From positions 817 through 15,407 of the forward strand of contig PMEC01000235.1 of the NCBI GenBank assembly GCA_003155705.1: a stretch of DNA of 14,591 bases, in the 5' to 3' direction. The stretch comes from Bacteroidales bacterium (GTDB lineage Bacteria; Bacteroidota; Bacteroidia; Bacteroidales; VadinHA17). Shown here one piece after another: positions 93-8,991 of the stretch (position 1 is its first letter; each line of letters opens with the position of its first letter). A model generated the notes under the pieces. The model was given only the letters and a program-made list of their open reading frames with translations. It did not search any database and was not told the origin of the DNA. Both the position numbers and the translations under genes were made by a program.

Positions 93-1232
93 TTATGAGA
101 GTCTGTTTTTAAAATCGTTATAGTTGAATTTCCTCAGAAGTTCAAATATACCATTCTTCTTCCAGATGCCGATTGAAGGATGCTGAACACCATTGAACGT
201 TGTGGTTTTGACCATTGTATAATGGATCATATCGAGGAAAACAATCCTGTCACCAGGTTTAAGTTCATTCTCAAATGACCAGTCACCTATAAAATCCCCT
301 GAAAGGCATGAGTTCCCTCCCATTCTGTAAACAGGTTTGCCTTTAACCGGGTCACATGCACCAAGAATATCAGGTTTATATGGCATCTCAAGACAATCAG
401 GCATATGCGCGGTGAATGAAACATCAAGAATGGCAGTTTTTATTCCCGTATTTTCAACAACATCTTCAACCGTAGAAACAAGTTCCCCTGTTTGCCATGC
501 AAAGGCGCTTCCAGGTTCAAGTATAACGTGAAGTCCAGTTCTCTCCCGAAATCTTTTAAGCAAATCAATGAGATGATCAGTATTATAATCTTTCATTGTC
601 ATCAGATGACCACCCCCCATATTGATCCATTTCAGAATGTTGAACAAATGACCGAATTTTTCCTCAACAATGCCCAATATTTTTTCAAGAGTATATGAAT
701 CTGATTCAAACAAAACATGAAAATGAAGTCCTTCAATACCTTCAGGAATACCTTTTTTAAGATCTGCGGCAGTAACTCCAAGTCTTGATCCGGGAGAACA
801 TGGATTATACAAACCATGACTTACTTCAGAATATTCAGGATTTATTCTTAGTCCGGCTGAAATATTTTTCGAATATTTTTTCAATTTATTCGAAAACTTT
901 TTAAACTGGTTTAATGAATTAAAAGATATATGTGAACTGTATTTCAGGATATCTTTGAAATCTTCTCCCCGGTAAGCTGGGCAATATGTGTGTGCCGGGG
1001 AACCTATTTCTTCATAACATAATCTCGCCTCATTGACTGAGCTTGCAGCAGCGCCGGAAATATATTCCTTCAGGATACCGAATACGCCCCACATTGCGAA
1101 ACCTTTGAATGCAAGAATTATTTCAGCTCCCGACTCATCAGAAACCCGCTTTATAAGAGAGAGATTTCTACGGAATCTTACTTCATCGATTACGTAGCAG
1201 GGAGAAGGTATTATATTGTAGTTTATCGGCAA
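93..1232 (-). CDS. nspC: Carboxynorspermidine/carboxyspermidine decarboxylase
   Basis: A PLP-dependent, alanine-racemase-fold decarboxylase that converts carboxynorspermidine or carboxyspermidine to norspermidine or spermidine in the cytoplasm; this is the last step of the aspartate-semialdehyde-dependent polyamine route. The 379-residue length is typical. Visible motifs are the PLP lysine in LAFKGFA (Lys43), a glycine-rich NMGGGH loop (204-209), LEPGSAF (238-244), HMPDCLEMPY (276-285) and the C-terminal active-site block GGNSCLSGD with Cys309. The start is a TTG at 1232: the only upstream in-frame codons are six before a TAA and none is a usual start, while the next ATG is Met47, beyond the PLP lysine. 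A CAGAG stretch sits just upstream of the TTG. The gene lies 134 bp downstream of its pathway partner in the same orientation, probably one transcript. In many Bacteroidota the product is likely spermidine; the sequence cannot separate the two substrates. Confidence 0.93.
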   Translation of the reverse strand: MPINYNIIPSPCYVIDEVRFRRNLSLIKRVSDESGAEIILAFKGFAMWGVFGILKEYISGAAASSVNEARLCYEEIGSPAHTYCPAYRGEDFKDILKYSSHISFNSLNQFKKFSNKLKKYSKNISAGLRINPEYSEVSHGLYNPCSPGSRLGVTAADLKKGIPEGIEGLHFHVLFESDSYTLEKILGIVEEKFGHLFNILKWINMGGGHLMTMKDYNTDHLIDLLKRFRERTGLHVILEPGSAFAWQTGELVSTVEDVVENTGIKTAILDVSFTAHMPDCLEMPYKPDILGACDPVKGKPVYRMGGNSCLSGDFIGDWSFENELKPGDRIVFLDMIHYTMVKTTTFNGVQHPSIGIWKKNGIFELLRKFNYNDFKNRLS

Positions 1233-1366: not shown

Positions 1367-2560
1367 CTAAACCTCCAAATCAACATCATTCAGCTCCACC
1401 CACGGAAGGCCAAGCCTGTTTAATTCTGTCATGAAGGGATCGGGGTCAAATTCCTCGACATTGAATACTCCAGGTTTTTTCCAGATTCCTTTTAGATACA
1501 TCATAGCGCCAATGGCTGCAGGAACTCCGGTAGTATAGCTTACTCCCTGGGCCCCTGTCTCCGCATAAGCCGCCTCATGACTGCAATTATTGTAAACATA
1601 ATAGGTTTTTTCCTTCCCGTTTTTCAGACCTCTTATCCGGCACCCTATTGATGTCTGACCCTTATAATTCTCTCCAAGTTCTCCAGGATCAGGTAGAACA
1701 GCTTTCAGAAACTGGATCGGTACAATTTTAATACCTTCGAACATGATAGGTACGATACCAGCCATTCCAATATTCTGAATTACACGTAAATGGGTAAGGT
1801 ATTCCTGTCCGAATGTCATCCAGAATCTTGCCCGTTTAAGTGTCGGGAAATTCTTTACAAGAGACTCAAGTTCTTCGTGATAGATAACATAGGATTCTTT
1901 TGGTCCGATATCGGGATAGTTAAGTGGTTTATGTATTTCGTGAGGTTTTGTATAAATCCACTTACCATTTTCCCAATATTTTCCTTTCTGTGTTACCTCC
2001 CGGATATTTATTTCAGGATTGAAGTTGGTAGCGAAAGGTTTCCCATGGTCGCCGGCATTACAGTCGACTATATCAAGATACTGAATCGAATCGAAATGAT
2101 GTTTAGCTGCATAAGCAGTATAAATTGATGTTACTCCGGGATCGAATCCGCAACCGAGGATCGCGGTGATACCTGCTTTTTTATATCTGTCTGCATAAGC
2201 CCATTGCCAGCTGTATTCAAACTTAGCCTCTTCAAGAGGTTCATAATTGGCAGTGTCGAGGTAAGCAACACCTGTTTCAAGACATGCGTCCATAATATGA
2301 AGATCCTGGTAGGGAAGTGCCACGTTGACAACAATATCCGGCCTGAAGGATTTAATTAGTTTTACAAGTTCAGGAACCTTATCAGCATCAATCTGAGAGG
2401 TCTTTATACGATCTTTCCCGATTCGATCAGCAATAGCTTCGCATTTCGACCTGGTGCGGCTTGCCAGCATAATTTCAGAAAAAACATCCGGAAGGGAAGC
2501 CATTTTATGAGCTACAACCGAACCTACTCCGCCGGCACCTATTAAAAGTACTTTTCCCAT
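1367..2560 (-). CDS. Carboxynorspermidine/carboxyspermidine dehydrogenase (saccharopine dehydrogenase family)
   Basis: Reductively condenses aspartate beta-semialdehyde with putrescine or 1,3-diaminopropane to give carboxyspermidine or carboxynorspermidine, using NADPH; the product feeds the decarboxylase encoded next. The 397-residue protein starts with a Rossmann dinucleotide loop, LLIGAGGVGS (5-14), followed by the family features ASRT (33-36), NVALPYQD (79-86), GCGFDPGVTS (136-145) and a C-terminal FDPDPFMTELNRLGLPW block (371-387). This pattern fits the Lys1-like carboxy(nor)spermidine subgroup rather than lysine-forming saccharopine dehydrogenase, and the adjoining decarboxylase makes the assignment firm. 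The ATG at 2560 begins directly at the Rossmann strand. There is no strong Shine-Dalgarno, but a good Bacteroidota-type promoter sits 34-63 bases upstream. It appears to be the first gene of a two-gene transcript. Confidence 0.92.
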   Translation of the reverse strand: MGKVLLIGAGGVGSVVAHKMASLPDVFSEIMLASRTRSKCEAIADRIGKDRIKTSQIDADKVPELVKLIKSFRPDIVVNVALPYQDLHIMDACLETGVAYLDTANYEPLEEAKFEYSWQWAYADRYKKAGITAILGCGFDPGVTSIYTAYAAKHHFDSIQYLDIVDCNAGDHGKPFATNFNPEINIREVTQKGKYWENGKWIYTKPHEIHKPLNYPDIGPKESYVIYHEELESLVKNFPTLKRARFWMTFGQEYLTHLRVIQNIGMAGIVPIMFEGIKIVPIQFLKAVLPDPGELGENYKGQTSIGCRIRGLKNGKEKTYYVYNNCSHEAAYAETGAQGVSYTTGVPAAIGAMMYLKGIWKKPGVFNVEEFDPDPFMTELNRLGLPWVELNDVDLEV

Positions 2561-2698: not shown

Positions 2699-3415
2699 TT
2701 AATTGTCAAAATACTTCCTTACCTGCTCAAGGTTTTCCGGAGTACCTATATCGGCCCAGAATCCTTCATCGTGTTTGAAAGTATAAATATTATGTTCTCC
2801 GGCGAGTTTTAGATATTGAGCAGTCATAGTATAGATACCTTCATTCATAAAATCAAATATCTCAGGTTCAACAATATGCATACTGGAGAAGGCTATTTCG
2901 GTAAGCTTTTCACTTACAGCTCCGACAAGTATCTTTTCTCCGGTTAATTTGTTTGTCCATCCACGGATCAAACCTGATTCATTAACAAGGTAGAACCTGT
3001 TTCCGGGGCGGTTCCTAACAGCCAGGGTAGCCAGCCCATTATTTTTAATATGAAAACTGTACAGAGATGAAAGATCCAGATCAGAAATAATATCAACATT
3101 ATAAATAAGGAATGGATTTTTATCAAAGAATCCTCTGGCTTTGTATAATCCTCCTCCAGTCTCAAGCAGCATTTCCCGTTCGTCCGAGACTGAGATTCTA
3201 AATCCCATTTTATTTAGTCTTGAAGCTTCATCTTCAACCATATCTGCAAAATGGTGCACATTGATTATTATGTCATTAAATCCATAGTCAGTGCATTTCT
3301 CAACAGCGAGATGAAGAGCAGTTTTTCCATTGATATCTACAAGAGCTTTAGGAATATTCTCGGTTATTTTTTCAAGTCTTTTCCCTAGTCCGGCTGCGAA
3401 AATCATTGCCTTCAT
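2699..3415 (-). CDS. murU: N-acetylmuramate-1-phosphate uridylyltransferase-like nucleotidyltransferase
   Basis: A 238-residue sugar-phosphate nucleotidyltransferase, predicted to make UDP-MurNAc from MurNAc-1-phosphate and UTP in the cytoplasm. The N-terminal signature AAGLGKRLEKITENIPKAL (7-25) is the GxGxR...PK loop of the family. ETGGGL (85-90), the metal-site aspartate in YNVDII (Asp108) and FWADIGTPENL (219-229) complete the pattern. The compact length without a left-handed-helix domain fits MurU and differs from GlmU or RmlA. The specific substrate rests on the neighbour: the start lies 12 bp after the stop of an AmgK-like kinase, the known MurU partner in Pseudomonas. The minus-strand AGGTGA (plus 3420-3425) is a good ribosome binding site and fixes the ATG at 3415. 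An alternative is another small sugar-1-phosphate nucleotidyltransferase, such as a guanylyltransferase. Confidence 0.82.
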   Translation of the reverse strand: MKAMIFAAGLGKRLEKITENIPKALVDINGKTALHLAVEKCTDYGFNDIIINVHHFADMVEDEASRLNKMGFRISVSDEREMLLETGGGLYKARGFFDKNPFLIYNVDIISDLDLSSLYSFHIKNNGLATLAVRNRPGNRFYLVNESGLIRGWTNKLTGEKILVGAVSEKLTEIAFSSMHIVEPEIFDFMNEGIYTMTAQYLKLAGEHNIYTFKHDEGFWADIGTPENLEQVRKYFDN

Positions 3416-3419
3416 AATA

Positions 3420-3425
3420 TCACCT
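3420..3425 (-). promoter_or_regulatory. Ribosome binding site of murU
   Basis: The minus-strand hexamer AGGTGA lies inside the 12-bp gap between the kinase stop and the murU ATG, at normal Shine-Dalgarno distance. It supports tight translational coupling of the two genes and the ATG at 3415. Confidence 0.6.
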
Positions 3426-3427
3426 GG

Positions 3428-4471
3428 TTAATTTTTTGTGTCGACCCGCTCTGTTAAATTCCTGAATAATCTGGTATCAGGAATGATGCTGATAATTTGT
3501 TTCAATTCAGGGATATTCACAGGAAGTTTTCCGGAATTTACAATACCTATCAGGAGATTAACTGCCGGAACGATACTTTCAGTGAATGAAGGTTTTTGTT
3601 CGTACAATCCACGGAATCCAAAAGCTCCCAACGCCTGCATGAGACGGATCAAGCTAAAACCGGCATAGTGTTCTGTAAACCGGTCTCTGTTTTCTTTTGT
3701 CACGGTACAAAATATGTCGGTATAATAATCCAGCAACATTTCATTTATATCAATTGGAATATGGGCTTTAGCATCATACAGAAGTGAAGCAACATCGTAC
3801 TGAGGAGCTCCACTCCTGCCTCCCTGATAATCAATGAACCAGGGATTACCATCAAGAATCATGATATTAGCGGACTGAAAATCACGATAAAGAAAATAAT
3901 TCTGACCGGCTTCCAGGAGAAAGTCACTTAAAACATTAAAATTATGTTCCAGCTTCTTTTCATTAAAGGGAACTGATATCAATTTCAGAAACATATATTT
4001 GAAATAGTTCATATCCCACATCATCGACTGTTTATCGAAGCTGCGGTGCGGGTAACATAATTCCATATCGAGACCATCAATTCCCCTGATCTGAAAAAGC
4101 AAAAGTATTTCAAGTATTTTTTTGTATAAAGTCGTTGTATCATTATCAAAGGCATTTCCAACAGGCTTTTGATTCAACCAGGTGAAGAGATTTGTATCTC
4201 CCAGATCCTGAAGAAAATAAATATGTTCATCGGGAAGGTGCCCGTAAATCTCAGGAACGGGAAGCTCTTTTGAGATGAAATGCCTGGTGAAGCCTACGAA
4301 TGCCTTATTTTCTTCAGGATTAGGATTAAACGCGCCAATTATGCTGCTTTTCTTTCCACCAATCCTGTAATATTTCCGGTCAGATCCTGAGGCCGGTATA
4401 GGAACGATCTTTAGTTCAGCTTTTCCAAATATTTTTTTGTATCCATCTGATATTAAAGATATTTCGTTCAT
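3428..4471 (-). CDS. amgK: AmgK-like N-acetylmuramate/N-acetylglucosamine anomeric kinase (APH-fold phosphotransferase)
   Basis: A 347-residue aminoglycoside-phosphotransferase-fold kinase, predicted to phosphorylate MurNAc (and GlcNAc) at C1 with ATP in the cytoplasm and feed MurU. ASGSDRKYYRIGG (27-39) matches the SGSDRxYYR nucleotide-loop region of AmgK-type proteins. FLQDLGDTNLF (86-96) is the hinge region. The catalytic loop is LYRDFQSANIM (194-204) with catalytic Asp197 and Asn202, and the metal-binding Asp214 lies in FIDYQGGR (212-219). The usual HxD of the family is YRD here, so Tyr replaces the non-essential His. The start has a clear AGAGGTAA on the minus strand. It is the first gene of a two-gene operon with murU, 12 bp apart. 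The family also includes kinases for choline, homoserine and aminoglycosides; the MurU partner and nearby NagZ argue for MurNAc. Confidence 0.8.
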   Translation of the reverse strand: MNEISLISDGYKKIFGKAELKIVPIPASGSDRKYYRIGGKKSSIIGAFNPNPEENKAFVGFTRHFISKELPVPEIYGHLPDEHIYFLQDLGDTNLFTWLNQKPVGNAFDNDTTTLYKKILEILLLFQIRGIDGLDMELCYPHRSFDKQSMMWDMNYFKYMFLKLISVPFNEKKLEHNFNVLSDFLLEAGQNYFLYRDFQSANIMILDGNPWFIDYQGGRSGAPQYDVASLLYDAKAHIPIDINEMLLDYYTDIFCTVTKENRDRFTEHYAGFSLIRLMQALGAFGFRGLYEQKPSFTESIVPAVNLLIGIVNSGKLPVNIPELKQIISIIPDTRLFRNLTERVDTKN

Positions 4472-4477
4472 AAATAA

Positions 4478-4485
4478 TTACCTCT
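4478..4485 (-). promoter_or_regulatory. Ribosome binding site of amgK
   Basis: The minus-strand AGAGGTAA (plus TTACCTCT) ends seven bases, with its GG nine bases, from the ATG at 4471. It is one of the few strong Shine-Dalgarno sequences in the window and settles the kinase start. Confidence 0.6.
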
Positions 4486-4528
4486 TTTTATTTCTTACTT
4501 TTTACTTTCATGAACTCAACCTGTCTAG

Positions 4529-4678
4529 GGTTGTTGAAAAAGAGATTAATTTTGACTTTCCCCCTTTGTGGTACTTTGTGTCGTCCTTTGTGATCCTTTG
4601 TGGTTCAATGATTTAGGTTTAACCACGAAGGGACACAAAGGTTTTCACGAAGGTTCACAAAGTACTTTTTCAACAGCC
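4529..4678. repeat. Inverted-repeat element with two mirrored arms of CCTTTGTG units (MITE-like)
   Basis: This non-coding element occupies most of the gap between the membrane protein and kinase genes. The outer arms GGTTGTTGAAAAAG (4529-4542) and CTTTTTCAACAGCC (4665-4678) are inverted repeats matching at 13 of 14 positions. Inside, the left arm carries four CCTTTGTG-type octamers starting at 4563, 4573, 4585 and 4595. The right arm carries four CAC(A/G)AAGG-type octamers starting at 4624, 4634, 4646 and 4656. Spacing is 10/12/10 on both sides and the units are exactly symmetric about 4613. The inner stem GTGGTT/AACCAC (4600-4605, 4621-4626) closes a 15-base loop. The left side has about 19 extra bases between outer arm and units. 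No transposase and no clear target-site duplication is seen. The outer arms resemble ends of insertion sequences, so a non-autonomous element is possible. The short plus-strand open frame over it is not a credible gene. Confidence 0.75.
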
Positions 4679-4682
4679 ACAT

Positions 4683-4735
4683 TTTACCTTCTAAATACGT
4701 CTTACTTTTGTCGTTATACTTTTGTCTTTTATCTT
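4683..4735. repeat. Short T-rich direct repeats beside the inverted-repeat element
   Basis: The plus strand holds two near-tandem copies of ACTTTTGTC (CTTACTTTTGTCGTTATACTT, then TTGTC again; about 4701-4725). The decamer TCTTACTTTT at 4700-4709 also occurs at 4493-4502, on the other side of the inverted-repeat element. The two copies lie 26 and 21 bases outside the outer arms, too far for a simple target duplication. The sequence is low in complexity, so little weight should be put on it. Confidence 0.4.
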
Positions 4736-4736
4736 T

Positions 4737-5843
4737 TCAAAATCTTATAAATACTTTCTTCCTGTAAAGAATAAGCGTTATACCCCACAAGATCAATAGC
4801 TGAATTATTGCAAACAACAGGCTGCCATTAAGGTTTCCGGCAACAGGGACACAAACCTTTTCATAGAACCATCCGTAAAGAGAAACTTTTTCCACCCCCG
4901 AACCTACCTTGATAAGGAACAATAACTTGACCCAGAGAATGGAAAGTGAATATGTAAAAAGAGCATTTGTGCCCAAAACCTCCAGAAAGGTTGCCCACTT
5001 CTGAAACTTGAAAATATCTGTGACAAGATAAAAGAGCGAAAGTACAGCTATTCCGATTCCAGCAGTATAAAGTACATACGAACTGGTCCACAATGGTTTA
5101 TTTAGAGGGAAGATAAGGTTCCAGAGAAGACCTAACCCAACACTTCCTGCGGCAAATAGCAATAACTTAATGACAGTAACCCCGCTGGGCGATCCTTTGC
5201 CAACCATTTCTCCTGTCAGAAACCCCAGTAAAACTGAACAAATAGCCGGGATGGTGCTTAATAATCCTTCAGGATCAAAAGGAATCCCAAAACCCTGATA
5301 AAGATGCTTTTCACCAAGAATCTTCAGATCAACCTTAAGCGCAAGATTGGCGTCCAGACTGAAAGGATCTGAACCACCGAACAGTACCATCACTCCCCAG
5401 TAAAGCAAAAGCAGTGAGCCGGTAACAACCCAGATATAATTTCTTCTTACTGCAAGACATATCAAAGCGCCAAATCCATAAGCAAGTGCGATGCGCTGGA
5501 GAACACCCATGATTCTTAAAGTAGAATAATCACGGCTGAAGTATGGAAAAATATTCAGGAAAAGTCCTAATGCAAAAATAGCTACTACTCTTCTGAAAAT
5601 CCTCAACAGAGATGCACCGGTAACCTGATGGTCATATTTTTTGAGTGAAAACCACATTGATACTCCAACAATAAAAAGAAAAACCGGGAAAACCAGGTCG
5701 GTTGGTGTACAACCATTCCATTTGGAATGCTGCAGAGGAGCATAGACAAATTTCCAGCTGCCCGGAGTATTAACGATAATCATGAATGCAACTATCAGAC
5801 CTCTTAATACATCGAGAGAGAATAACCTGCTGCTTTTAACCAT
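4737..5843 (-). CDS. nagX: NagX-like multi-span membrane protein (DUF5009 / HGSNAT-related acyltransferase family)
   Basis: A 368-residue inner-membrane protein with about ten hydrophobic segments (roughly 12-27, 47-65, 84-103, 114-132, 136-155, 195-212, 225-245, 256-277, 290-311, 341-360). It carries the family marks SLDVLRGLIVAFMIIVN (9-25), a conserved His39 followed by KWNGCTPTDLVFPVFLFIVG (41-60), GVLQRIALAY (113-122), PFDPEGLLSTIPA (188-200), KPLWTSSYVLYTAG (249-262) and GTNALFTY (291-298). These are shared with human heparan-alpha-glucosaminide N-acetyltransferase, whose active-site His sits in the matching loop. Bacterial relatives called NagX occur in GlcNAc-use gene clusters. The role here could be moving GlcNAc or MurNAc across the inner membrane, or acylating an amino sugar; the sequence does not decide. 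It is divergent from the muropeptide hydrolase and upstream of amgK-murU in the same orientation. No strong Shine-Dalgarno precedes the ATG at 5843. Confidence 0.8.
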   Translation of the reverse strand: MVKSSRLFSLDVLRGLIVAFMIIVNTPGSWKFVYAPLQHSKWNGCTPTDLVFPVFLFIVGVSMWFSLKKYDHQVTGASLLRIFRRVVAIFALGLFLNIFPYFSRDYSTLRIMGVLQRIALAYGFGALICLAVRRNYIWVVTGSLLLLYWGVMVLFGGSDPFSLDANLALKVDLKILGEKHLYQGFGIPFDPEGLLSTIPAICSVLLGFLTGEMVGKGSPSGVTVIKLLLFAAGSVGLGLLWNLIFPLNKPLWTSSYVLYTAGIGIAVLSLFYLVTDIFKFQKWATFLEVLGTNALFTYSLSILWVKLLFLIKVGSGVEKVSLYGWFYEKVCVPVAGNLNGSLLFAIIQLLILWGITLILYRKKVFIRF

Positions 5844-5902
5844 TACAGAGATTTTTTTTGCTACGTAAAAATAATAATTAATGTCAATTTGTAATAATCT
5901 TG

Positions 5903-5913
5903 AAGGTCACCTT
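5903..5913. promoter_or_regulatory. Palindromic operator candidate AAGGTCACCTT
   Basis: An 11-base palindrome with a single central base lies in the 178-bp divergent region between the NagX-like gene and the hydrolase gene. It is bracketed by a perfect 8-base inverted repeat, TAATCTTG (5895-5902) and CAAGATTA (5927-5934). The half-site AGGTCA recurs as AGGTGA at 5954-5959 and inverted as TCACCT at 6005-6010. This fits binding by a dimeric repressor or activator shared by both genes, but no regulator gene is in the window. Confidence 0.4.
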
Positions 5914-5951
5914 GAATTATTGTCGGCAAGATTAAGATTAAGACAGGAATC

Positions 5952-6012
5952 TGAGGTGAAAAAAACACTATTTTTGAAAGAGTATTGAATTTATGTTTAA
6001 CTGATCACCTCA
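5952..6012. promoter_or_regulatory. Perfect inverted repeat flanking the hydrolase promoter region
   Basis: TGAGGTGA (5952-5959) and TCACCTCA (6005-6012) are perfect inverted copies 45 bases apart. They lie either side of the best promoter candidate, and the right copy ends nine bases before the first ATG of the hydrolase. It could be a pair of operator half-sites. It is unlikely to be a simple RNA hairpin if transcription starts near 5983, because then only the right arm would be transcribed. Confidence 0.4.
5969..5976 (+). promoter_or_regulatory. Candidate -7 box for the hydrolase gene
   Basis: TATTTTTG matches the Bacteroidota -7 consensus TAnnTTTG. A start near 5983 would give a leader of about 40-55 bases. 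No TTG is found at the -33 position, so the promoter may be weak or need an activator. Confidence 0.35.
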
Positions 6013-6021
6013 AAAAATAAA

Positions 6022-8991
6022 ATGAAAATGCATTTTATGAAGAAAAAAATAATTCCTGCAATTATTACATATCTTCTTCTGTTTCCACTCTCTTTGAGGG
6101 CTCAGCAGACAGATCCTCCGTTTATAAAATATCTGAACCATCCCTGGGTCGATTCTGTATTAAAAACGCTTACCACCGATCAGCAGATTGCCCAATTAAT
6201 ATGGATTCCGGCATGGTCTGACAAAGATGTTTCGCATTCAGTAGAGGTTAGTGATATCATAAGAAAATTCGGTATTGGAGGAATAATTTTTTTTCAGGGT
6301 ACTCCGGGAAAACAGGCTGAGCTGACAAATTTCTATCAGAAAATCTCTAAAGTTCCGCTGTTTATTGCAACTGATGCTGAATGGGGTCTGGGAATGAGGC
6401 TGAATAATGTGGAAAAGTTTCCATATCAGATGACACTTGGGGCAATTCAGAATGATTCACTCATTTACCTCATGGGGAAAGCTATTGCAGATCAGAGTAA
6501 AAGGTTGGGCATCAATATGAATCTGGCTCCTGTTGCAGACATAAATAACAATTCACTGAACCCGGTCATCAACTACAGATCCTTTGGTGAGAACCGGGAA
6601 AAGGTTACAGCGAAGACACTGATGTATATGAAAGGGATGCAGGATAATAACATAATGGCAACTGCAAAACATTTTCCGGGACATGGAGACACTGATGTAG
6701 ATTCACATAATGATCTTCCTGTGATAAACCATTCAAAATCAAGACTGGATAGTCTCGAATTGTTCCCTTTTTCGAGGCTGATTAATGAAGGAATATGTGG
6801 TGTAATGACTGCACATCTTAGGGTTCCATCGCTCGATACTACTTCAAATTTGCCATCCACGCTTTCCTCTTTAATTATAAATGATCTCCTCAAGAAACAA
6901 ATGGGATTCAAAGGACTTGTGATGACCGATGCAATGAATATGAAAGGTGTCACAAAGTACTATGAACCATGGGTAGCCGATGCAAAGGCGTTTGAAGCCG
7001 GAAATGATGTGATTGAATATGTTACTGATGTTGATGCTGCTGTCAGAGAGATCAGTAATCTGGTAAAAGCAAAAAAAATAACAGCGGAGGAGGTTACATC
7101 CAGATGCCGGAAAATACTTGCAGCAAAATACTGGGCTGGACTTAGCAATTATAAAAAAGTAAGACAGACAAACCTGGAACATGATCTGTCAAAAGGGATA
7201 TCAAACGCATTGATCCGGGAACTGTATGCTTCAGCAATAACAGTATTGAATGACAATGATAATATTATACCTGTGAGTCATCTTGAAAGAACCAGGATAG
7301 CAACGCTTGCTATAAACAAAAATAAAAAAGAGCCAACATTATTCCAGGAAAGAATATCAAAATATGCTCCCGCTGATAACTTTTTCATTGATACAATTAA
7401 TCAGAAGAAGACATCCGTAATTCTAAAAAAACTGGCTCATTATGATCTGGTCATTACCGGGATTTTTAATACCGATCAAAGACCTGGCATGAACTTTGGC
7501 ATTCCTGAGAACCTTGATAGTTTGCTCGAAAAACTAAATATGCAAAACAGGTGCATTATCACATATTTTGGAAATCCCTATGCCATCGCCAAGATCAATT
7601 CTCTTCAAAAAGCTGCCGGGCTCATCCTGGCATATCAGGAAAATAATTACACCCAGGATCTGTCAGTACAGCTCATTTTCGGTGGTATCGGATCAAAGGG
7701 ATTGCTGCCAGTGACTATTAATAATAAATACCCGGAGGGTTACGGAATTATTACCCCGGGAAATCTGCGTCTCCAGTACGGCATTCCTGAAAGTGCGGGT
7801 ATGAACTCTGAATTTCTGAACAGGAAGGTTGACTCAATTGCAAATTGGGGTATTGCTGTCGGAGCCTATCCGGGTTGTGAGGTAATGATCGCAAGAAAAG
7901 GGGTTGTGGTTTTTCAGAAGACTTATGGTTATCAGACATATGAAAACAGGGTCGGAGTATCAGAAGATGACCTTTACGACCTCGCATCTGTTACAAAAAT
8001 ATCAGGTCCATTGCCAGCTTTGATGTTGCTGAATTCGTCAGGAAAATTTTCTCCCGATGAAAAGCTTGGAACATATCTGCCGGATTTCCGCCGAACAAAT
8101 AAGGCTGATCTGCTATTGAGAGATATGCTAACACACCAGGCAGGACTGCAAGCCTGGATCCCTTTCTGGAAGGAAACTGTGAAAAAAGACGGAAAGTTCA
8201 AAAGGAATATCTTTTCACCGGAAGCTTCGAAAAAGTACCCGGAAGAAGTTGCCGAAGGACTTTATATTAACAAGAATTACAGGAAGAAAATCTTCACCGA
8301 GATAAAAAAATCGCCTCTTGGAGAGAAAAAATATCTCTATTCAGATTTGACATTTATAATTGTTCCGGAGATTATTGACAGGCTCGCCGGCAAACCTTGG
8401 TATGATTTTGTGACATCTGAGTTATATCATAAAATAGGGGCGTTTGAGATCGGATTTAATCCATATAAGAAATACTCACTTACCAGAATTGTACCTACAG
8501 AGTATGATTCACTTTTTCGAAAACAGCTGTTACATGGGACTGTTCATGATGAAGGCGCTGCTATGCTGGGGGGAATTTCTGGTCATGCCGGGCTATTCGC
8601 AACTGCCAACGACCTGATGAAACTCATGGAATTGTACAGAAGGATGGGAAACTATGGAGGAGAACAGTTAATAAGCAATGAAGTTATGAAAGAGTACAGC
8701 CGGGTGCAGTTTCCTGAAAACAAGAACAGAAGAGGACTTGGATTTGACAAACCATTGCTTAATAATCAGGAAGTTAAACCGGATGAAGTGTATCCTGCCA
8801 GGAGCGCATCACCAGAAAGTTTCGGCCATTCCGGGTATACAGGTACTTTTGTGTGGGTAGATCCGAAATATGAAATCAGTTATATATTCTTCTGCAACAG
8901 GGTTTACCCCACCAGGAATAATAATCTGGTCACAGATATGAACCTTAGAACAGAAATTCTTCAGGCCATTTATGATTCGATTGAAAAGTGA
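6022..8991 (+). CDS. Exported NagZ-type GH3 beta-N-acetylglucosaminidase fused to a class-C-beta-lactamase-like serine hydrolase
   Basis: A 989-residue periplasmic fusion. The signal peptide runs to about residue 27 (LSLRA then QQTD). In-frame ATGs lie at 6022, 6028 and 6037; the third gives a classic MKKK start. GH3 domain, about 40-375: DAEWGLGMRL (118-127), the NagZ signature KHFPGHGDTDVDSH (216-229) holding the Asp/His dyad thought to act as general acid-base, and the nucleophile Asp303 in MTDAMNMKGV. Residues about 400-575 resemble a degenerate GH3 C-terminal domain. Serine hydrolase domain, about 590-985: SVTK (656-659, nucleophile Ser656 and Lys659), YSD (773-775) in place of YxN, HDEGAAMLGGISGHAGLF (842-859) and HSGYTG (936-941) in place of KTG. 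The first domain should cleave GlcNAc-MurNAc links. By analogy with the separate NagZ and AmiE (beta-lactamase family) of Bacillus subtilis, the second may remove the peptide from MurNAc; a D,D-peptidase or esterase is the alternative. It is divergent from nagX and near amgK-murU. Confidence 0.9.
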   Translation: MKMHFMKKKIIPAIITYLLLFPLSLRAQQTDPPFIKYLNHPWVDSVLKTLTTDQQIAQLIWIPAWSDKDVSHSVEVSDIIRKFGIGGIIFFQGTPGKQAELTNFYQKISKVPLFIATDAEWGLGMRLNNVEKFPYQMTLGAIQNDSLIYLMGKAIADQSKRLGINMNLAPVADINNNSLNPVINYRSFGENREKVTAKTLMYMKGMQDNNIMATAKHFPGHGDTDVDSHNDLPVINHSKSRLDSLELFPFSRLINEGICGVMTAHLRVPSLDTTSNLPSTLSSLIINDLLKKQMGFKGLVMTDAMNMKGVTKYYEPWVADAKAFEAGNDVIEYVTDVDAAVREISNLVKAKKITAEEVTSRCRKILAAKYWAGLSNYKKVRQTNLEHDLSKGISNALIRELYASAITVLNDNDNIIPVSHLERTRIATLAINKNKKEPTLFQERISKYAPADNFFIDTINQKKTSVILKKLAHYDLVITGIFNTDQRPGMNFGIPENLDSLLEKLNMQNRCIITYFGNPYAIAKINSLQKAAGLILAYQENNYTQDLSVQLIFGGIGSKGLLPVTINNKYPEGYGIITPGNLRLQYGIPESAGMNSEFLNRKVDSIANWGIAVGAYPGCEVMIARKGVVVFQKTYGYQTYENRVGVSEDDLYDLASVTKISGPLPALMLLNSSGKFSPDEKLGTYLPDFRRTNKADLLLRDMLTHQAGLQAWIPFWKETVKKDGKFKRNIFSPEASKKYPEEVAEGLYINKNYRKKIFTEIKKSPLGEKKYLYSDLTFIIVPEIIDRLAGKPWYDFVTSELYHKIGAFEIGFNPYKKYSLTRIVPTEYDSLFRKQLLHGTVHDEGAAMLGGISGHAGLFATANDLMKLMELYRRMGNYGGEQLISNEVMKEYSRVQFPENKNRRGLGFDKPLLNNQEVKPDEVYPARSASPESFGHSGYTGTFVWVDPKYEISYIFFCNRVYPTRNNNLVTDMNLRTEILQAIYDSIEK

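Follow-up and report, generated by a model that had tools for sequence, protein, structure and literature searches.

Our analyses point to a pared-down locus for the salvage of peptidoglycan sugars in a 14,591-nucleotide stretch of DNA from a Bacteroidales bacterium (assembly GCA_003155705.1, contig PMEC01000235.1, positions 817 to 15,407; hereafter the window, meaning the whole stretch analysed). Four neighbouring genes code for a predicted exported fusion of a NagZ-type glycosidase with a serine hydrolase, a NagX/HGSNAT-like membrane protein, an AmgK-like sugar kinase and a MurU-like nucleotidyltransferase. The locus probably joins a periplasmic fusion, import of N-acetylmuramic acid (MurNAc) and activation by AmgK and MurU, and probably originated by loss from a longer island.

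In the proposed route, the NagZ half of the periplasmic fusion would cut the non-reducing N-acetylglucosamine (GlcNAc) from GlcNAc-MurNAc-peptide, after which the AmiE-like half would release MurNAc from its stem peptide; in Bacillus subtilis, NagZ and AmiE do this as two separate proteins. Free MurNAc would enter the cytoplasm via a putative carrier, the AmgK-like kinase would phosphorylate it at C1, and the MurU-like enzyme would make UDP-MurNAc alongside de novo synthesis by MurA and MurB. The lineage would have derived this locus from a longer Tannerella-type island by losing its import and catabolic half, comprising AmpG, MurK, MurQ and the glucosamine 6-phosphate (GlcN6P)-deaminase-like and D-lactate-dehydrogenase-like genes. 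If right, wall fragments would be turned into UDP-MurNAc by a minimal pathway that bypasses AmpG, AnmK and MurQ, and the relatives, whose loci range from the full island to the bare core, would offer a natural series of genomes in which to test which parts wall-sugar salvage requires. The features of the cluster are as follows.

2699..3415, minus strand: MurU-like nucleotidyltransferase, 238 aa, predicted to convert MurNAc 1-phosphate to UDP-MurNAc (NCBIfam and solved-structure matches)
3428..4471, minus strand: AmgK-like sugar kinase, 347 aa, APH fold, predicted MurNAc/GlcNAc anomeric kinase, without RapZ_C domain
4737..5843, minus strand: NagX/HGSNAT-like membrane protein (368 aa) whose Asn25 and His39 align with the HGSNAT motif
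5844..6021, no strand: intergenic region of 178 bp separating the divergent NagX-like gene and fusion
6022..8991, plus strand: fusion of NagZ-type GH3 and serine beta-lactamase/AmiE-type domains, 989 aa, predicted exported (Pfam, structure 3bmx, motifs)

The four genes of the cluster

All four open reading frames (ORFs) of the original prediction, which had named a NagZ-type fusion and NagX-like, AmgK-like and MurU-like proteins, are present at the coordinates given for them. The MurU-like, AmgK-like and NagX-like genes follow one another on the same strand, 12 bp and then 265 bp apart, and the fusion diverges from the NagX-like gene across the 178-bp gap. A single four-gene operon was therefore ruled out, and we speak of a cluster.

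The fusion holds, in a single chain as in RmNag3-type enzymes, a GH3 N-domain (residues 51-366, E 5.5e-75 in Pfam) and then a serine beta-lactamase domain (residues 615-966, E 1.2e-38), with a weak GH3_C match at residues 437-569. Compared by sequence with solved structures, residues 12-576 match YbbD/NagZ (3bmx, E 4e-63). The loop bearing the NagZ Asp-His dyad, KHFPGHGDTDVDSH at residues 216-229 (KHFPGHGDTxxDSH), is present together with the Asp303 nucleophile, as are the serine-hydrolase motifs SxxK (656-659), YSD and HxG. In an alignment with 22 other rows, 19 of the same genus and three outgroup, the loop and the Asp are kept in 21 and SxxK in all 22; two outgroup rows have YSG for YSD, and the row of genome G121 stops before HxG. 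The remaining row is that of G125, an AmpG-bearing genome, whose fusion (locus L192, 3002-5590) is a frame of 863 aa that lacks both the NagZ loop and the region of the nucleophile. The N-terminus is basic and then hydrophobic, signal-like as read by eye only, and the fusion was found in all 19 same-genus genomes surveyed.

For the MurU-like protein, the MurU models of NCBIfam are the best-scoring families (125.7 bits for a cut-off of 250 and 102 bits for a cut-off of 370; best E 2.3e-36), the next family scoring 66.4 bits. It also matches, by sequence, the solved structures 8hhd (E 5.8e-21), titled N-acetylmuramate alpha-1-phosphate uridylyltransferase, and 4y7t (E 3.3e-22), titled 'nucleotidyl transferase', which we take to be MurU. 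The kinase has a Pfam APH match, and two AmgK models are its only NCBIfam matches (E 3.4e-11 and 5e-11; 42.8 bits for a cut-off of 550 and 42.5 bits for a cut-off of 500). Its fold and invariant residues support an AmgK-like assignment, and residues and neighbours agree with the predicted AmgK function.

In most of the Bacteroidales examined, the AmgK-like kinases are about 480 aa long and carry a C-terminal RapZ_C domain (PF22740; e.g. L085:5835-7262, and L004-L032); the kinase frame has at least 440 aa in 89 of 103 order genomes, counted by eye. Of the 30 order loci tested, 28 have the domain, and the two exceptions include the window's own copy; the domain is present in 1/20 same-genus loci and 37/80 named loci. 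This architecture suggests that in many relatives amino sugars feed back on the kinase, and its occurrence on AmgK-like kinases seems to be new.

NagX is the only NCBIfam match of the 368-aa membrane protein (157.7 bits for an equivalog cut-off of 480; E 4.3e-46), and among solved structures the human HGSNAT chain matches it by sequence (E 1.6e-13). In an alignment of 69 rows, some of them duplicates, His39, which aligns with the catalytic motif of HGSNAT, is kept in 68 (one gap) and Asn25 in 67 (one gap, one Ala). No Pfam family was matched at E <=0.001, nor HGSNAT_cat (PF07786) even at E <=10; the more distant relative at L045 does match HGSNAT_cat. In genome G019 (L046:221-2760), a DUF5009 protein and a NagX-like protein adjoin on opposite strands, with the aligned histidine in both.

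Conservation of the neighbourhood and the larger island of relatives

AmgK and MurU form a pair across the order. The full four-gene block occurs only in the window's lineage and is well conserved there. Across 119 genomes of the order, matches at E <=0.001, remote paralogues included, were obtained for the kinase in 103, the fusion in 114, the MurU-like protein in 111 and the NagX-like protein in 22. Kinase and MurU lie within 4.5 kb of each other in 64 of the 97 genomes compared, and kinase and fusion within 10 kb in 3 of 85, two of the three in the window's genus; these distances come mostly from the best row per genome (103/103 kinase, 100/111 MurU and 95/114 fusion genomes entered), weaker or unlisted matches and all NagX rows being left out.

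At 21 same-genus loci from 20 genomes, NagX stands beside AmgK in 16 of 19 testable cases, MurU does so in 19/19, and 8/17 have the fusion no more than 2 kb away. A second set of 80 named loci overlaps the first, some loci coming from the same genomes (e.g. L089/L069, L120/L083), and 43 of them were chosen as a clade by kinase identity of at least 58%. In this clade NagX is beside AmgK in 34/39, MurU in 37/38 (L107 was scored as lacking MurU solely through the overlap limit in counting) and the fusion within 2 kb in 25/31, all counted fusions being divergent; the corresponding figures for the other 37 named loci are 0/35, 14/36 and 0/31. The clade records are titled as Bacteroidales, Bacteroidia, Bacteroidetes or Bacteroidota metagenome-assembled genomes, and, to judge from the isolate names, their sources include fens and lakes. 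The survey of relatives called for by the original prediction thus bears it out within the lineage, but not outside it, where the fusion is seldom near AmgK and NagX-like proteins are few. The steady company that the HGSNAT-type protein keeps with AmgK and MurU seems to be new, and makes the inner-membrane crossing of free or de-acetylated muramic acid testable. In G104, from another family, a MurU-like gene directly adjoins the fusion (L053:6128-9857), the kinase being on another contig.

The block of relatives encloses an island of Tannerella type with AmpG, MurK, MurQ, NamZ, NlpC/P60 and epimerase genes. Loci without an adjacent fusion carry varying sets of MurQ, MurK-like, GlcN6P-deaminase-like, NlpC/P60, Ala-Glu epimerase-like, NamZ and AmpG genes. 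The order in G119 and G131 is MurU-AmgK-NagX, epimerase, P60, NamZ (a fragment in G131), deaminase-like gene, a large ORF, AmpG, further ORFs, MurK, MurQ and the fusion; the island of G132 is similar but lacks MurK and MurQ there. The further ORFs include a FAD/4Fe-4S D-lactate-dehydrogenase-type protein, GH9 plus deacetylase, SpoIID and DUF4922 in G119, and a glycosyltransferase and a Golvesin_C/Amidase_3-type protein in G131, their domains having been read in one genome each and matched elsewhere by position and length only. The D-lactate-dehydrogenase-type gene, located in G119 between the deaminase-like gene and AmpG (L184:8262-11198), fits the catabolic branch, since D-lactate is a product of MurQ (PMC5790795). 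Beside MurU in G132 stand a 682-aa GKRP-like relative of MurQ and a sodium:solute symporter (L081:6544-10080), a possible pair for import and etherase. AmpG, MurK and MurQ, all present in relatives' loci, do not occur in the 20 kb that surround the block of the window (L059).

Gene content was compared in 31 genomes, 19 of the genus (the window's included) and 12 from other families. AnmK occurs in none of the 19, in contrast to 7 of the 12. Among control genomes, 5 of 14 were positive for it. A close AmpG homologue is held by 6 of the 19 and any match to TIGR00901 (AmpG) at E <=0.001 by 7, none in the 31 genomes exceeding the family cut-off, and MurQ at E <1e-60 is held by 8. Neither AmpG nor a true MurQ was found in the window's genome, which is 75.9% complete (only a weak MurQ match, 4.6e-5), and G122 and G129, each 98% complete, have no AnmK, AmpG or true MurQ. 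The earlier proposal that the locus works without AnmK and AmpG agrees with the lack of AnmK in the genus and of AmpG in the window's genome, but AmpG is kept in six or seven relatives, and MurQ or MurK in several.

MurB exceeds its cut-off in 14 of the 19 genomes, among them the window's, for which a loss of de novo MurNAc synthesis was therefore rejected. It does not in G125 and G127 (each 97% complete), G130 (95%), G120 and G124; if this absence is real, AmgK and MurU could be the sole UDP-MurNAc route in those five genomes, as suggested for Tannerella. The window's genome has two NamZ genes at other places, where none of the neighbours scanned was another recognised wall gene; they could supply exo-muramidase activity that helps MurNAc release.

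Because same-genus relatives keep AmpG, and several keep MurQ or MurK in the region, the compact form appears to be a reduced state inside the genus, and the window looks like a pared-down form of the larger salvage island of its relatives. A tree of the fusion, on which AmpG and MurQ states were assigned by hand (the AmpG-like match of G120 and the GKRP-like matches scored as absent, AmpG of G112 left open), groups the six close-AmpG genomes with G112, G134 and G136 in a single supported clade; the AmpG state needs one change and the MurQ state five. On each side of the tree there are genomes in which MurQ adjoins the fusion or is close to it (G126 and G135; G119, G131, G136 and G112), which argues for loss as the direction of change. 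The converse history, with the compact form ancestral and the larger island inserted later in relatives, is an alternative that we regard as somewhat unlikely; it concerns the history of the locus only. The window's fusion, which branches outside the supported clade holding all six close-AmpG genomes at a position there not settled by the tree, is in its favour, whereas MurQ near the fusion in both halves is most simply explained by ancestral linkage followed by repeated loss. The series from full island to bare core produced by such loss seems not to have been described before.

The flanks of the cluster comprise two carboxynorspermidine genes on the MurU side.

93..1232, minus strand: carboxynorspermidine decarboxylase nspC (TIGR01047, 509.8 bits, above the cut-off of 409), conserved flank
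1367..2560, minus strand: carboxynorspermidine synthase-like gene (NCBIfam, 409.8 bits for a cut-off of 800), conserved flank

Both were found in most of the clade loci extending that far, and the synthase-like gene is probably outside the salvage function. Most relatives have, between MurU and this flank, a gene that looks TrkH-like when its sequence is read by eye; it is absent from that junction in the window, L093, L095 and L115. On the fusion side are a DUF3857 protein, another protein whose DUF3857 match falls short of the Pfam cut-off, and a GH28 protein. The consensus TTTG-N(18-21)-TAnnTTTG, presumably that of Bacteroidota-type promoters, has no match anywhere in the window, so that a promoter of this type was rejected, and an 8-base inverted repeat seen by eye in the 178-bp intergenic region was put down to chance.

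Evidence against the reading and competing explanations

Several observations weigh against a pared-down salvage locus as the reading of the window. The absence of AmpG and MurQ is weak in a genome of this completeness, and the reduced state is not clean, because G123, G127 and G133 show weak matches to a 520-aa MurQ/GKRP-like protein and G120 holds a 415-aa AmpG-like protein. The link of AmpG with the form of the locus is a clade trait explained by one change and is not independent evidence. For the proposed route no MurNAc importer was identified, and NagX is absent beside AmgK in 5/39 named clade loci and 3/19 same-genus loci; the former count led us to reject the NagX-like protein as an obligatory part. 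Finally, the MurU-like, AmgK-like and NagX-like proteins all score far below their NCBIfam equivalog cut-offs, and for this reason we infer their substrates; the gene identities first predicted stand at superfamily level, by best Pfam and NCBIfam matches, but not at that of the equivalogs.

NagX has been proposed to acetylate periplasmic glucosamine using cytoplasmic acetyl-CoA, and is distantly related to TfMurT, a putative MurNAc transporter (PMC9007349). This kinship, the position of NagX next to AmgK in most clade loci and the lack of another importer within the window's block would suit a NagX-like protein that is itself the MurNAc importer, a counterpart of Tannerella MurT, so that the four genes make up a complete pathway of cutting, import, phosphorylation and activation. 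We consider this, the main alternative for the protein, rather improbable, since the retained His39 and Asn25 of HGSNAT type point to acetyl transfer, AmpG-bearing relatives also have NagX, and the five clade loci that miss it keep fusion and AmgK. Moreover, one paper (PMC5790795) assigns TfMurT to the sodium symporter superfamily at one point and to the major facilitator superfamily at another, which conflicts with its kinship to NagX. Seven stretches from five other-family genomes with AmpG or MurQ contain no ORF labelled NagX-like (E <=1e-4). The protein may thus serve in acetyl transfer or in import.

There is only a small chance that the kinase and nucleotidyltransferase use another substrate, such as GlcNAc 1-phosphate, heptose or choline, and stand beside the fusion for another reason. 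Their low scores would allow it, as would the fact that APH and NTP-transferase folds are common to choline kinases, LicC-type and heptose enzymes; against this, both MurU models exceed the next family by at least 35 bits, the kinase matches no NCBIfam family other than AmgK, and in relatives MurQ, MurK, NamZ, AmpG and the fusion share a block with the pair. That the fusion serves mainly the breakdown of chitin or another polysaccharide is very unlikely: RmNag3 is active on acetyl-chitooligosaccharides (PMC6987092), but the window's fusion has a serine beta-lactamase/AmiE-type domain, and its relatives neighbour MurQ, MurK, NamZ, NlpC/P60 and Ala-Glu epimerase-like genes.

Peptidoglycan-sugar salvage by a pared-down locus hence remains the reading that we prefer. 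A more specific version is offered tentatively: a Tannerella-like feeding island may have been reduced to a purely anabolic line without AmpG, AnmK and MurQ, made up of the periplasmic NagZ-AmiE fusion, an HGSNAT-type protein that imports MurNAc or re-acetylates muramic acid, and AmgK and MurU, the kinase having shed its RapZ-type sensor domain. If true, the HGSNAT-type membrane protein would gain a new role in cell-wall recycling, and where MurB is not detected the anabolic line could be the sole source of UDP-MurNAc. Among open-licence PMC papers we found none on a NagZ-AmiE muropeptide fusion in Bacteroidetes, a NamZ muramidase in Tannerella forsythia, N-acetylmuramic acid linked with DUF5009 or a RapZ C-terminal domain with a Bacteroidetes phosphotransferase, in each case a weak absence.

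Comparison with known systems

The recycling route of Pseudomonas uses cytoplasmic NagZ, AmpG, AmpD and AnmK, and there AmgK and then MurU lead to UDP-MurNAc. The window resembles this AnmK-MupP-AmgK-MurU route in its last two steps, and differs in the lack of AnmK throughout the 19 same-genus genomes and of a detected AmpG in its own genome. Bacillus subtilis differs in having separate NagZ and AmiE proteins and import by the phosphotransferase system. Its salvage proteins are NagZ (YbbD), AmiE (YbbE) and NamZ (YbbC). It is like the proposed route in that both hydrolytic steps take place outside the cytoplasm (as reported in PMC6987092). NagX, the putative transmembrane glucosamine N-acetyltransferase, is similar to the window's protein in size, membrane type and conserved His, but known NagX genes are often in chitin-use operons (PMC9007349), whereas the window's copy sits with AmgK and MurU.

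A close parallel to the fusion is RmNag3 of Rhodothermus marinus, an active GH3 and beta-lactamase enzyme with a signal peptide, a NagZ-type GH3 domain with the Asp-His dyad and a C-terminal beta-lactamase domain (PMC6987092); the window's equivalent of the signal is signal-like. Its authors argued for a periplasmic placement because R. marinus is reported to lack AmpG, and drew the comparison with NagZ and AmiE of B. subtilis. R. marinus differs in being reported to have AnmK, and the excerpted text does not mention an AmgK/MurU/NagX neighbourhood (PMC6987092). The original prediction of periplasmic hydrolysis followed by import of free MurNAc fits the NagZ and serine-hydrolase motifs and the signal-like N-terminus, and is sound in outline, RmNag3 being a characterised, periplasm-assigned relative; its novelty as a salvage topology does not hold, as the same had been proposed in print for RmNag3 (PMC6987092) and free MurNAc uptake is known in Tannerella forsythia (PMC7670621). 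The overall interpretation is accordingly retained in outline, with the block specific to one lineage in which some members keep AmpG or MurQ.

The window lacks the AmpG, MurK and MurQ of T. forsythia, whose operon codes for a lyase, two glycosyltransferases, LytB, AmpG and YbbC, followed by MurT-MurK-MurQ (PMC5388701), and its genome has MurB, whereas T. forsythia is without MurA and MurB. Nevertheless, free MurNAc is imported by T. forsythia, for which an anabolic AmgK/MurU branch has been proposed (PMC5388701, PMC5790795, PMC7670621), and the window's relatives hold a similar gene series.

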